Source of the DNA: Pseudomonas sp. P5_109
GTDB taxonomy: Bacteria; Pseudomonadota; Gammaproteobacteria; Pseudomonadales; Pseudomonadaceae
DNA length: 64,000 bases
Direction: 5' to 3'
Assembly (NCBI RefSeq): GCF_034009455.1
Contig: NZ_CP125380.1
Location: forward strand, 6,305,001 to 6,369,000
Shown: positions 15,419 to 20,920 of the stretch, piece after piece
Layout: every line of letters starts with the position of its first letter
Position numbering within the stretch: the first letter of the stretch is position 1
The notes under the pieces: model-generated
Told to the model about the DNA's origin: nothing
The model's input: the letters and a program-made list of their open reading frames with translations, nothing else
The model's database searches: none
Program-made: the position numbers and the translations under genes

Positions 15419-16012
15419 TTAGCGCGTGCCGCCGGTTTGTTTGAGGAAGTTGGCGAAAAGCTCGTGGCCCTGCTCGGTGAGGATCGACTCAGGGTGGAAC
15501 TGCACGCCTTCGATGTTCAGGGTCTTGTGACGCAGGCCCATGATCTCGTCGACCGAGCCGTCTTCGAGTTGGGTCCAGGCCGTCAGCTCCAGGCAATCGG
15601 GCAGGGTTTCGCGCTTGACGATCAATGAATGATAGCGGGTCACCGTCAGCGGACGATTCAGGCCTGCGAAGACACCCTTGTCCTCGTGAAATACCGGGCT
15701 AGTCTTACCGTGCATCACTTGACGGGCGCGCACCACATCACCGCCAAAGGCCTGGCCGATGGATTGGTGGCCGAGGCAGACGCCAAGAATCGGCAGCTTG
15801 CCGGCGAAATGCTTGATCGCTTCAATCGAGATGCCGGCTTCGGTCGGGGTGCAAGGACCGGGGGACACAACGATGCGCTCGGGGTTGAGGGCTTCGATTT
15901 CAGCGATGGTCAGTTCATCGTTGCGCACGACCTTGACCTCGGAGCCGAGCTCGCCCAGGTACTGCACAACGTTGTAGGTAAAGGAGTCGTAGTTATCGAT
16001 CATCAGCAACAT
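15419..16012 (-). CDS. trpG: anthranilate synthase component II (glutamine amidotransferase)
   Basis: Hydrolyses glutamine and passes ammonia to TrpE for anthranilate synthesis. It has 197 residues with the class I triad: nucleophile Cys in [11 protein letters not shown] near residue 79, and His-Glu in [10 protein letters not shown] near the C-terminus. It is the first gene of trpGDC. Its partner trpE lies 2.5 kb away behind estA. A PabA function for 4-aminobenzoate synthesis is possible as a second role, as in some bacteria. Confidence 0.96.
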
Positions 16013-16177
16013 GGCGTTTAGAACCTCTTGAATTCACTGACTTTTAAGATGGCCTTCGAATGATTGACCCGCAGAGCGCTGCGCTTTGTCAGGTGCTGGA
16101 GTAGCGCCAGCAAAGCGGCATTTCAAACGGGTGAAGAAGGCGAAGCGGTACAGGTCCGGCGAAGCCGGCAAAAGAAT
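16013..16177 (-). promoter_or_regulatory. trpGDC untranslated leader with two hairpins
   Basis: This stretch lies between the leader peptide stop and the trpG ATG on the minus strand. Eight bases after the stop is a GC hairpin, CCGGC/GCCGG with loop TTC (plus-strand 16156-16168). Further on is a larger hairpin, CGCTTTG-CTGG paired with CCAG and CAAAGCG. Neither is followed by a U-tract, so a classic Rho-independent attenuator is not evident. Confidence 0.45.
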
Positions 16178-16246
16178 TCAGGCGCGCCAACGCCAGCGGG
16201 CGTGTGCCTTGATGACTTGATCCAGGAGTTTACTGATGATCAACAC
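16178..16246 (-). CDS. probable trp leader peptide upstream of trpGDC
   Basis: A short reading frame on the minus strand ends ...HARWRWRA-stop and carries two near-adjacent Trp codons (TGG CGT TGG). The start is unclear: GTG at 16246 gives 22 codons, a GTG at 16276 gives 32, and neither has a strong ribosome site. Its last 18 codons match the last 18 codons of gph at 45 of 54 bases by my count, with the final 24 bases identical. Regulation of trpE and trpGDC by attenuation has been reported in P. putida, which supports a leader role; the mechanism here is inferred. Confidence 0.55.
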   Translation of the reverse strand: MLIISKLLDQVIKAHARWRWRA

Positions 16247-16420
16247 GGGGAAGGTCTCGTTCGTACGTCCCGGCACAGTAACTTAGCTGGGCAGAGCGTG
16301 CAATATCGCCGGGGGTACTGCCCGCGAAACTCTTAAAGGCTTCGCGACAGATGGCAAAAGGCCGAACGTTTTTGGTACTGTCGTTTCGTTCACTAAAACA
16401 ATAAATAAACGGACTTGCTC

Positions 16421-18331
16421 ATGATCAAACAGTCGTTGTTTGTACCGCTCGCAGGATGCTTGCTCGCGATGGCATGCGCCCAGGCGAACGCCGCACCCAA
16501 TCCTTATACAAGCTTCGTGGTCTTCGGGGACAGCCTCAACGATGCCGGGACCTTTGCCGACACCGGCGGGCCTGCCGGGTCGACGCAGCGCTTTACCAAC
16601 CGGACGGGGCCGGTGTACCTGGATGGCAGCGGCGAAGTCCGCTCGCTCAACTCCACACAGATACTGGGCGGAAAACTGGGGTTCTCGGCGGACCAGACCG
16701 CATCTTCATCGTCGGCGGTGCGCGTCAGCAACGGCCAGCCCGATGGTAACAACTGGGCTGTGGGTGGCTACCGTACCGACCAGATTCTGGATTCGATCAC
16801 CAGCACCTCCGCCACCGGCGAACGCACCCGGGCCGGCTATCTACCATCCAATAACTTCCGCGCCGACCCGAACGCGCTGTATTACCTGTCGGGTGGCGGC
16901 AACGACTTCCTGCAAGGTCGCGTCACCAGCCTGCCCCAGGCCAGTGCCGCCGCCGACCGCCTGGCCGACAGCGTGCAGACTCTGCAAACCGCAGGCGCCA
17001 AATACGTCATGGTCTGGTTGCTGCCCGATATCGGCTTTACCCCGGCGTTCAACGGCACCCCGCTGCAAGCCTTCACGTCCCAGCTCAGCGCCCAGTTCAA
17101 CACTGAACTGGTGAGCCGACTGCAGAACATCAATGCCGAAGTCATCCCGCTCAACATTCCGGTACTGCTCAAAGAGACGTTCGCCAACCCGGCGCAGTTT
17201 GGCCTGGCCACCGACCAGAACCTCATCGCCACCTGCTTCAGCGGTAACGGTTGTACCGAGAATGCCCGCTTCGGCATCAACAGCGCCACGCCGGACCCGA
17301 CCAAGCTGATCTTCAACGACTCGGTGCACCCCACCGAAGCCGGACAGCGCCTGATTGCCGATTACGCGTATTCCCTGCTGGCGGCGCCGTGGGAGCTCAC
17401 CCTGCTGCCGGAAATGGCCCAGGGCACTGTACGCGCGCACCAGGATGAACTGCGCAATCAATGGCTGGCCGATTGGGAAAACTGGCAGGGCGTCGGTCAA
17501 TGGCGAGCCATTGTTTCGGGGGGCGGACAGCACCAGGACTTTGACAGTCAGGACAGCGCGGTCAGTGCCGACGGCAACGGAGCCAACCTGAACATCGGTG
17601 GCAGCTACCGTATCGATGATGCCTGGCGCGTCGGCTTGGCGGCCGGGTTCTATAACCAGAAGCTCGAGGCCGGCAGCAACGACTCCGACTACAAGCTCAA
17701 CACCTACCTGGGCACGGCATTCGCCCAATACCAGCAAAACCGTGTCTGGGCTGACGTGGCATTGACGGCAGGGCATCTGGATTACGACAGCCTCAAGCGC
17801 AAGTTCCAGCTGGGCGTCAACGAACGCGGTGAAAAAGGCGATACCAGTGGCTACGTCGAGGCCTTCAGCGCTCGCCTGGGTTACGACATTGCGCAACAAG
17901 CCAGCAGCCCTTGGCATGTGTCGCCGTTTATCAGCGCTGATTTCTCCAAGGCGAAAGTCGACGGCTACTCGGAGGACGGCAACAATTCCACGGCGCTGAC
18001 CTTTGCCGATCAGGAGGTTATTTCCCGACGCCTGGGCGCTGGCCTGCAGGGTAAATACCAGATTACCCCGCAAACCCAGGTGTTCGGCGAAGCGGCAATC
18101 GAGCGTGAGTACAACGACGATACCCAGGATGTGGGCATCAACCTCAACACCTTGCCGAACAACCAGTTCACTCTGGAAGGCTACACCCCGCAAAGCCACT
18201 TGCAGCGGGTGAACCTGGGCGTGAGCCATAACCTCACCCGCGATCTGGCATTGCGCGCCAGCTACAACATCCGCAAGGACGACGACTTCACCCAACAGGG
18301 CATCAACGTAGGTGTTGCGCTGGACTTCTGA
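16421..18331 (+). CDS. estA: GDSL esterase autotransporter (EstA/EstP)
   Basis: Outer-membrane-anchored esterase, linked in P. aeruginosa to rhamnolipid production and motility. The ATG at 16421 gives 636 residues, near the 646 of EstA. A signal peptide ends about residue 24 (AQANA). The catalytic Ser38 is in the GDSLN block, other SGNH blocks are GGGNDFLQG, and Asp-His are in DSVHPTEAG near residue 300. Residues from about 350 form a type V autotransporter beta-barrel ending in a terminal Phe (VGVALDF). It is the only plus-strand gene between minus-strand trpG and trpE. Confidence 0.93.
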
Positions 18332-18340
18332 TGTGCAGGC

Positions 18341-18382
18341 AATAAAAAACGCGGCGCCCTTACAGGCGCCGCGTTTTTTATT
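18341..18382. terminator. strong bidirectional terminator after estA
   Basis: An 18-base perfect stem runs from AATAAAAAACGCGGCGCC (18341-18358) to its complement ending at 18382, with loop CTTACA. A and T runs flank the GC core in both directions, serving estA and the convergent trpE. Confidence 0.95.
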
Positions 18383-18393
18383 GGGGTGAATAC

Positions 18394-18530
18394 TTTTGTG
18401 GCGAGGGGGCTTGCCCCCGCTGGGTCGCGAAGCGGCCCCAAGATCTGCAGTCGCGGTGTATCAGGTACACCGAGTGCGAGGTTTGCGACTGCTTCGCAGC
18501 CGAACGGGGGCAAGCCCCCTCGCCACAAAA
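18394..18530. repeat. long nested inverted repeat (about 137 bp)
   Basis: The outer 26-base arms (18394-18419 and 18505-18530) are perfect complements with core GCGAGGGGGCTTGCCCCC. Inside, GCGAAGC and GCTTCGC pair imperfectly, and GTGTATCAGGTACAC lies at the centre. It differs from the GGGAGCGGGCTTGC REP family and is a second intergenic palindrome type in this genome. Confidence 0.85.
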
Positions 18531-18549
18531 GCTCCCTCACCACGTGAGC

Positions 18550-20031
18550 TCAGCTTTCCGGGGTTTGTTCGGCCAGGGCAACGGCGCGGAACATCGCGCG
18601 GCGCTTGTTCAGGGTTTCTTCCCATTCCAGTGCCGGTACCGAGTCGGCAACGATGCCGCCACCGGCCTGCACGTGCAGCTCACCGTTCTTGATCACCGCC
18701 GTGCGGATCGCAATGGCGGTGTCCATGTTGCCGTTCCAGGCGAAGTAGCCGACGGCACCGCCGTAGACGCCACGCTTGACCGGTTCCAGTTCGTCGATGA
18801 TTTCCATCGCGCGGATTTTCGGCGCACCGGACAAGGTGCCCGCCGGCAGAATCGCCCGCAGTGCATCCATCGCCGTCAGTCCGGCTTTCAGTTGCCCGGT
18901 GACGTTGGACACGATGTGCATCACGTTGGAGTAACGCTCGATGACCATTTTCTCGGTGAGCTTCACCGAGCCGATTTCCGATACCCGCCCGGTGTCGTTG
19001 CGACCGAGGTCGATCAGCATCAAGTGTTCGGCGATTTCCTTGTCATCCGACAGCAGGTCTTGTTCCAGCGCCAGGTCAGCCTCTTCGCTGGCGCCCCGCG
19101 GACGGGTGCCGGCAATCGGGCGCACGGTGATGAGGTTGTCTTCGACCCGCACCAGCACTTCCGGCGAGCTGCCGACGACGTGGAAGTCGCCGAAGTTGAA
19201 GAAGTACATGTAAGGCGTCGGGTTGAAGCAACGCAGCGCCCGGTACAGATCGATCGGCGCCGCCTTGAAGTCGATCGACATGCGCTGGGACGGCACGACC
19301 TGCATGCAGTCACCGGCCAGGATGTATTCCTTGATCGTGTCGACGGCTTTTTCGTAATCGTCCTGGGTGAAGCTGGAGCGAAACACCGGGTCTGCCGCTT
19401 GTTGCTTGCTGAAGTCCAGGCCACGACGCGGGGTGATCGGCTGACGGAGTTGTTCCAGCAGCTCTTCCAGGCGGGCGCGACCTTGCTCGAAAGCATCTTC
19501 CTGAGCCGGGTCAGCCAGGACGATGGCGTGCATCTTGCCAGCCAGGTTATCGAACACCACGACGGCATCGGAGACCATCAGCAGAATGTCCGGCACGCCC
19601 AGCGGATCCGGGTTCGGGCATTTGCCCAGGCGCTTTTCCACATAACGCACGCAGTCATAGCCGAAATACCCTACCAGGCCACCGTTGAAGCGCGGCAGGC
19701 CGGCAATGGTCGGCACGTTGTAGCGAGCCTTGAAGGCCTCGACGAAGGCCAGCGGGTCTTCCACGTCGTGACTTTCGGTCTCGACGCCATCGACGGTCAC
19801 GCTGATGTGATGGTCGTGAACCCGCAGCACGGTGCGGCACGGCAGGCCGATGATCGAGTAACGGCCCCACTTCTCGCCACCCTGTACGGACTCCAGCAAG
19901 TAGGAATTGGGCTCGTCAGCCAGCTTCAGGTAGATCGACAGCGGTGTGTCAAAGTCGGCCAGGGTTTCGCAGGCAAGCGGAATGCGGTTGTAGCCGGCAG
20001 CGGCCAAACGCAGGAATTCTTCGCGGATCAT
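18550..20031 (-). CDS. trpE: anthranilate synthase component I
   Basis: Chorismate-binding subunit that makes anthranilate with ammonia from TrpG. It has 493 residues. The N-terminal feedback-inhibition region carries [18 protein letters not shown], whose LLES element binds tryptophan in known TrpE proteins. The C-terminal catalytic core contains [18 protein letters not shown] and [21 protein letters not shown]. It starts 70 bases after the gph stop and is likely in the rpe-gph-trpE transcript. Tryptophan codons at the end of gph lie just upstream, a possible attenuation signal. Confidence 0.97.
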
Positions 20032-20155
20032 GAGGTGCCTCGTGGCTTGAGGGTCGAACAGTCAGGTATGCAAACGCGCCGGATAACCGGCCAGGATCAA
20101 GTCAGGCGCGCCAACGCCAGCGGGCCAGGGCCTTGATGACTTTCATCCAGAGTTT
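20032..20155 (-). promoter_or_regulatory. candidate trpE attenuation leader overlapping the end of gph
   Basis: The last codons of gph read [21 protein letters not shown], with three Trp codons in 17. Nine bases after the stop is a GC hairpin, GCCGG/CCGGC with loop TTAT (plus-strand 20078-20091), then the trpE ribosome site. The arrangement copies the trpGDC leader at 16156-16246. That ribosomes finishing gph act as tryptophan sensor for trpE is an inference. Confidence 0.45.
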
Positions 20156-20920
20156 GCGAGTGACCACCACGATGGCGTTTCCAGAAGGGGGTTGGACAGC
20201 GTCGGCCAACGTTATCTCAGCGGCCGGATCCAGGCAACCGGGAATTAGTTTGCGCAAGTCGTCGATGACCAGCGCCGGCGACTCTTCGGCTATCGGCCGG
20301 CCGTGGTTATAGCCGTAGCTCAGGGCCACGCACTTGACCCCCGCCGCTTTCGCCGCCAGCACATCGCTGCGCGAGTCACCAACGAACAACGACTGCGAAG
20401 CCGGAATGTTGGCCATCTTCATCACGAAAAACAGCGCGGCCGGATCGGGTTTTTTCTGTGGCAAGGTATCGCCGCCGATGATCCAGCGGAAATAGCGGCC
20501 GATCTTCATCTGATCCAGCAGCGGCGCGACGAAACGCTCCGGCTTGTTGGTGATCAGTGCCATCTCGACACCCTGCTTTTTCAACCATCTGAGGGTGTCG
20601 CGCACGCCGGGGTAAACCACGGTCAACTCATGGCTCTCGCCATAAGCCTGCATGAAATACTCCAGCGCCCGATCGGCCTCGGCGTCATCGACCGCCGAAT
20701 GATCAATAGCGCCAGCCAGCGCACGACGCACCAGTACCGGCGCGCCATTGCCGACCCACTCGCGCACCGCTTCCAGACCGGCGGGTTGGCGACCGAGATT
20801 GAGCAGCATCTTGTCCACAGCCACTGCCAGGTCCGGGACCGAGTCGATCAGAGTACCGTCCAGATCGAACATCACCAGCCGCGGCAGTTGCCCCGGGAAC
20901 AGCTGCTCAAAGCCACTCAT
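20102..20920 (-). CDS. gph: phosphoglycolate phosphatase
   Basis: HAD-superfamily phosphatase that removes 2-phosphoglycolate. It has 272 residues. Motif [10 protein letters not shown] has the nucleophile Asp19 and Asp21, motif II is in LITNKPE, and motif III/IV is in [11 protein letters not shown] and [16 protein letters not shown]. Its ATG overlaps the rpe stop by four bases. The last 30 or so residues, after the HAD fold, form an appended tail ending [10 protein letters not shown]. That tail is duplicated as a short reading frame ahead of trpG, suggesting it is kept for regulation as well as, or instead of, catalysis. Confidence 0.93.

Follow-up and report, generated by a model that had tools for sequence, protein, structure and literature searches.

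A 64,000-nucleotide (nt) stretch of the Pseudomonas sp. P5_109 genome (positions 6305001-6369000 of a single 6.96-Mb contig; hereafter the window) carries two matching tryptophan-rich leader open reading frames (ORFs), one upstream of trpGDC and the other upstream of trpE, in frame within the end of the phosphatase gene gph. From their sequence and conservation we put at about 80% the probability that both are leader-peptide attenuators of tryptophan synthesis (features in Table 1). The match, first noticed in an earlier sequence-only reading, was borne out: minus-strand bases 16178-16231 and 20102-20155 are equal at 45 of 54 positions and share their frame, the final 24 bases are identical and both leaders terminate in RWRWRA-stop. 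Seen via relatives, each leader is a 22-codon ORF with a GTG start and Trp at codons 18 and 20; over the 22 codons and stop the two copies agree at 54 of 69 bases, beginning GTG TTG ATC in the trpG leader and GTG GTG GTC, at the corresponding gph codons, in the trpE leader. The next-best ungapped 54-base match within the window reached 29 (minus strand) or 32 (plus strand), and local alignment of the trpE and trpG control regions scored 82, against 29 for the highest of 1000 simple one-partner base shuffles. Genome-wide, the 21-mer CGCTGGCGTTGGCGCGCCTGA has exact matches at just the two leader sites, with 5 further places at 3 mismatches. Each leader is also preceded by a promoter-like pair and followed by a GC hairpin; the earlier reading had located both hairpins correctly but given their distance from the stops as 8 or 9 nt, where it is 9 and 10 nt.

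The leaders are conserved in relatives, so that, as had been claimed, homologous Trp-codon leaders precede both operons. A looser leader pattern, AARGCNNNNGCNCGNTGGCGNTGGCG, matched 147 of the 149 genomes from the genus and 174 of the 198 from the family, mostly with one or two copies per genome, and the reversed pattern, used as a control, gave 0 matches among the rows displayed; the leader pair is therefore not a chance resemblance. Trp 18 and Trp 20 occur in 82/82 distinct trpE leaders and 39/39 distinct trpG leaders, partly by construction, as the detection pattern requires RWRW. Eight genomes lacking the pattern were examined, and five of them hold a divergent leader, ending in GRWRWRV (L235, L237, L238) or WHRWRCCA (L241, L242); a single exact motif misses such leaders. 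One Trp is left in L239 and none was seen in L236 and L240. All three come from small-genome members of the family, whose trpE leader has been lost or reduced to one Trp. A motif match in L226 was rejected as a trp leader because it sits in another kind of gene.

Upstream of trpE, the leader is a nested ORF in most of the 212 loci compared (the window, two pieces of the genome it comes from, genus and family loci, 80 named genome contigs and 15 other-family loci, near copies not thinned). By pattern search, a Trp-rich ORF end was found in 203 of them, 157 with the gph stop in common and 46 as separate ORFs. The separate ORFs belong to 39 family loci and to 7 of the 15 other-family loci, where they are shorter and end in RWRW, RWWR and similar; the 9 loci where the search gave none are the other 8 of those 15 and L058, a contig that starts 45 bases before trpE and is the sole family locus to fail the detection pattern. 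Among the separate loci displayed, gph frames stop at about 226-239 amino acids, save L138 (252) and L181, which has no nearby gph. Among 97 fused gph genes, left after thinning 137 that encode 272 amino acids, the proportion of synonymous codons that are identical rose from 0.57 at codons 21-220 to 0.91 from codon 251 onward. It was also 0.91 at codons 229-250, a figure that counts just the few codons with a mostly common residue, many residues at codons 231-249 being common to fewer than half of the pairs. The top 22-codon window starting before codon 229 likewise gave 0.91, a control that is not clean because such windows extend into the constrained stretch. Synonymous identity was 1.00 at codons 228, 229 and 236-238, which hold TTGCCT and TAACGT; codon 251 is GTG in 95 of the 97 genes, and both Trp codons, whose conservation in relatives had been set as a test by the sequence-only reading, are invariant in all 97 tails. 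A like promoter pair precedes the trpE leader in the separate-gph loci too. A strict sigma-70 promoter scan gave no site (1.0 expected) and recovered neither promoter-like pair, so we propose the leader promoters from their conservation. A leader gene thus lies hidden in the annotated C-terminus of an enzyme and is built into the NCBI Gph model: NCBIfam NF009698 has absorbed it to the point that its positions 252-272 are hit by the isolated trpE leader peptide (E 1.5e-8), and the peptide of the trpG leader also gives a match (E 8e-4).

The presence of the trpG leader follows operon layout. Among 190 distinct trpE rows (151 fused), the 146 with trpG on the same stretch were counted and the 44 without it left out; loci were called joined when trpG starts less than 300 nt after trpE, and the leader was sought within 420 nt. 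The split loci had it in 75 of 77 cases, the joined loci in 0 of 69. A tree built from TrpE DNA by a quick method requires at least 18 changes of layout, 16 of leader presence and 9 of fused or separate gph. Its supported branches gave 14 independent pairs, and among these the leader went opposite to joining in 12.5 on average, with joining in 0 and undecided in 1.5 (median p 0.0005). The layout changes are natural replicates which tie the presence of the putative attenuator to operon splitting. One of the two split exceptions, L113, has an unrelated Trp-rich ORF, MCNATTLTQQWWRFQ, upstream of trpG in place of the usual leader, and distantly placed trpG genes (L224, L227) are also preceded by a leader. 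Joined loci such as L013 and L052 retain, by eye, the final part of the split-type trpG untranslated region, which suggests that the leader was lost by deletion upon rejoining. Across genera, most trpG leaders have KAH where most trpE leaders have KAL, a difference that fits an old duplication. The earlier proposal that one segment was duplicated to serve both split operons thus holds for several genera, with the refinement that the trpG copy comes and goes with operon layout.

All these data argue for attenuation: the leaders, their Trp codons and the hairpins are conserved, the trpG copy tracks the split layout, a GTG and constrained synonymous sites lie inside gph, joined loci show what look like deletion scars and L113 bears an unrelated Trp-rich ORF. 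In this regard, P. putida trpE and trpGDC are reportedly subject to attenuation, as stated in the title of a 2001 paper by Olekhnovich and Gussin (J Bacteriol 183:3256), that is, the same two operons in the same genus. In E. coli, the trp attenuator uses the leader peptide TrpL, which is encoded ahead of trpE and has two Trp codons close to its end. The ORFs described here resemble it in being short, in having two Trp codons near the end and in their position upstream of trpE; they differ from it in the Arg between the Trp codons, in that no U-tract terminator was found, in the overlap with another gene and in being two. In tnaC-type leaders control is Rho-dependent and excess tryptophan induces the tna genes. 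Here, too, the ribosome would sit on a short Trp-containing ORF near its stop with no strong U-tract, but the biosynthetic genes would be induced by lack of tryptophan rather than by excess. We infer stalling, its direction and the following step: when charged tRNA-Trp is scarce, the ribosome would stall at Trp 18/20 and the downstream genes would stay on, and when it is plentiful the ribosome would complete the leader and expression would be cut early. For the step after stalling a U-tract terminator seems improbable, and termination of the Rho type or a ribosome-binding switch fits better. Further support comes from P. aeruginosa, whose trpGDC has premature 3' ends adjoining a GTG upstream ORF according to PMC8297930, and whose record OQ658366 contains such an ORF, VIHLSSIITSLIKAFARWRWRA, with a GTG start upstream of trpG. 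In a literature search that covered few subscription journals, no title or abstract opening dealt with a leader nested in gph.

The hairpins are a regular feature of both leaders. Within the 42 nt that follow the stop, the top-scoring stem begins at offset 7-12 for trpE (158 of 160 distinct segments) and at 8-12 for trpG (62 of 62), with 33 and 11 different stems, respectively; a stem score of at least 12 was reached by 0.90 of trpE and 0.95 of trpG segments and by 0.20 and 0.05 after base shuffling. The earlier remark that no U-tract terminator is present also stood, as a T-rich tract (at least 5 T in the 8 nt past the hairpin) occurred in 0 of 174 trpE and 1 of 79 trpG segments. A terminator scan returned one terminator-like site, 16181-16194, which is the trpG leader end itself (4.6 expected in shuffles), and Rfam covariance models gave no trp leader: none of the 7 matches with E up to 1 between 10000 and 26000 reached its gathering score. 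Between the stop and the Shine-Dalgarno site C exceeds G (0.38 vs 0.24 for trpE, 0.31 vs 0.25 for trpG).

Additionally, GUUUGC 3' of the trpE hairpin is able to pair with GCAAAC of leader codons 5-7 as a candidate helix, P1. In 68 aligned trpE rows, 84.5% of P1 cells and 70.3% of hairpin cells are paired; taken together the figure is 78.2%, compared with 51.5% and 44.7% when the helices are slid by one column. The covariation check proposed for the hairpins, done together with P1 on these rows, had a mixed outcome. The covariation score was 0.110 (reached by 11 of 500 shuffles) and 8 pairs changed on both sides (34 of 500), but cells changed on both sides were no more numerous (20) than after sliding by one column (28 and 35), and further pair types were unremarkable (110 of 500), so that the support for P1 comes mainly from pairing that has been kept. 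The motifs GCAAA and TTTGC occur together in 129 of 166 trpE cases and 52 of 76 trpG cases, with one or both absent in the rest; the trpG copy of the window has GTAAA and TTCGC, which breaks one P1 pair.

Several observations weigh against attenuation. In the natural variant L211 the trpE hairpin is gone, by eye, while leader and CGTTTGC are kept; RNAalifold gave weak folds for the 68-row trpE and 31-row trpG alignments (8 and 12 pairs, the majority within leader codons that do not vary); and modelling of ribosome masks on 73 sequences produced no fold switch. Furthermore, no trpE leader was seen in L236 and L240, no leader was seen upstream of the split trpG of L163, and the P. aeruginosa trpGDC 3' ends of PMC8297930 passed that paper's cut-off only in azithromycin-treated biofilm.

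The strongest competing explanation is that the leader governs ribosome binding at trpE and trpG rather than transcription, its RNA hiding the Shine-Dalgarno site unless a ribosome stalls. An earlier alifold run (60 trpE and 48 trpG rows) hinted at leader pairing with the ribosome sites, as did single folds, and the mean pairing of the Shine-Dalgarno site with the leader was 0.45 in 73 sequences, but with the ribosome footprint masked the site became no freer (0.25 vs 0.24-0.25). Since the masks gave no switch, we do not rely on the alifold pairing. We hold this explanation as a tentative, minority one. The sequence-only reading had instead made gph itself the trpE leader, with its translation as the sensor. 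The gph tail is indeed the leader, in frame, and the stop is common to both in those 157 loci, so ribosomes translating gph on a gph-trpE transcript could sense tryptophan with the internal GTG unused. That gph translation is needed, however, did not hold: the leader is an ORF of its own that lies outside the gph frame in 39 family loci, and where it is nested in gph the synonymous sites preserve its GTG and promoter-like bases, whereas the intervening protein varies. Translation of gph is therefore not required as the sensor, and we consider it unlikely to be the sensor, although it could still act as one on read-through transcripts. A third possibility, a Gph C-terminus that is simply conserved as such, with the trpG copy left as a relic, would explain why the 272 positions of NF009698 take in the tail; we regard it as very improbable, as the ORF persists though many gph frames lack the tail, the synonymous sites are constrained and the trpG copy tracks operon layout. 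Leader-peptide attenuation, which we prefer, would provide the sequence anatomy for control of both tryptophan operons across most of the Pseudomonas family, and it makes Trp leader attenuation without a U-tract terminator testable.

Table 1. Positions in the window of the two leaders, their candidate control elements and the adjacent genes.
Feature	Position	Strand	Remark
trpG leader ORF, VLIISKLLDQVIKAHARWRWRA-stop; GTG 16246-16244	16178..16246	-	homologues in 75/77 split loci
trpE leader ORF, in frame within gph; GTG 20170-20168	20102..20170	-	
GC hairpin, 9 nt past trpG leader stop	16156..16168	-	
GC hairpin, 10 nt past trpE leader/gph stop	20078..20091	-	
GCAAAC, 5' arm of candidate helix P1 (leader codons 5-7)	20152..20157	-	
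GUUUGC, 3' arm of candidate helix P1	20070..20075	-	
Promoter-like TTGCAC-17-TACTGT before trpG leader	16275..16303	-	conserved in alignment
Promoter-like TTGCCT-17-TAACGT inside gph	20209..20237	-	synonymous identity 1.00 at gph codons 229, 236-238
GAGA, probable ribosome-binding site of trpG leader	16255..16258	-	by eye; conserved in alignment
GGAAA, probable ribosome-binding site of nested trpE leader	20178..20182	-	by eye
trpG, first gene of trpGDC	15419..16012	-	
trpE	18550..20031	-	
gph, phosphoglycolate phosphatase; last 22 codons are the trpE leader	20102..20920	-	
estP, separates trpE from trpGDC here	16421..18331	+	NF041609 esterase EstP

Lastly, the start of trpG appears to be a target of integrative elements. 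Genome G322 carries three leader copies. At one of them (L228) the leader and untranslated region closely resemble those of L171 by eye, just the first 18 or so trpG bases follow before the sequence departs, and a tyrosine integrase comes next; 44.6 kb further (L230) a diverged leader precedes an intact trpG. A scan of viral contigs yielded 68 leader stretches, some of them near copies, in which the leader is followed by TrpG (33, and 6 more with an unchecked second label), by no trp gene (17), by an early end of the contig (9) or by others (3). Together with L228 and L230, trpG starts were classed as intact in 37, cut in 22 and not recognised in 11; L301, L304 and L308, among the 22, are actually intact by eye, which leaves 19 cut. 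Shortly past the cut, 17 of these have two GCGGGTA repeats and 2 have one. Two such repeats also lie between leader and trpG in nine stretches (L230, L251, L260, L265, L269, L279, L292, L301, L304); for comparison, 61 genome loci have none and 20 have one. L269, with repeats and an intact trpG, and L300, which is cut, share one 18.4-kb contig, and L300 has an integrase whose domain model match is below cut-off. Against the plasmid collection the element-borne leader gave no match and against the phage collection a single one; phage records held distant integrases only, all under 60% identity. Judging from these sequences, integrase-bearing elements appear to enter the first trpG codons and to bring a diverged leader of their own, placed at the far end ahead of an intact trpG. 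SXT-like elements insert at the 5' end of prfC, which thereby gains a new promoter; the likeness lies in entry at the start of a host gene and replacement of its upstream control, and the difference in that the replacement here seems to include an amino-acid leader. The odds seem to us about even that promoter, leader ORF and hairpin form a portable cassette without an intrinsic terminator, one that overlaps an enzyme gene in frame, stays with split trpG and is borne by elements which cut trpG from its own leader and set a diverged copy before an intact trpG, so that Trp control would be kept.

Two minor observations concern the trpE neighbourhood. In G051 (L219, L225), an assembly rated 9% contaminated, a tandem partial copy, in which the first 205 trpE codons run into gph from residue 61, places the leader twice, 1.3 kb apart. 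In the window, inverted GC-rich stretches are visible by eye between estP and trpE (18341-18540).

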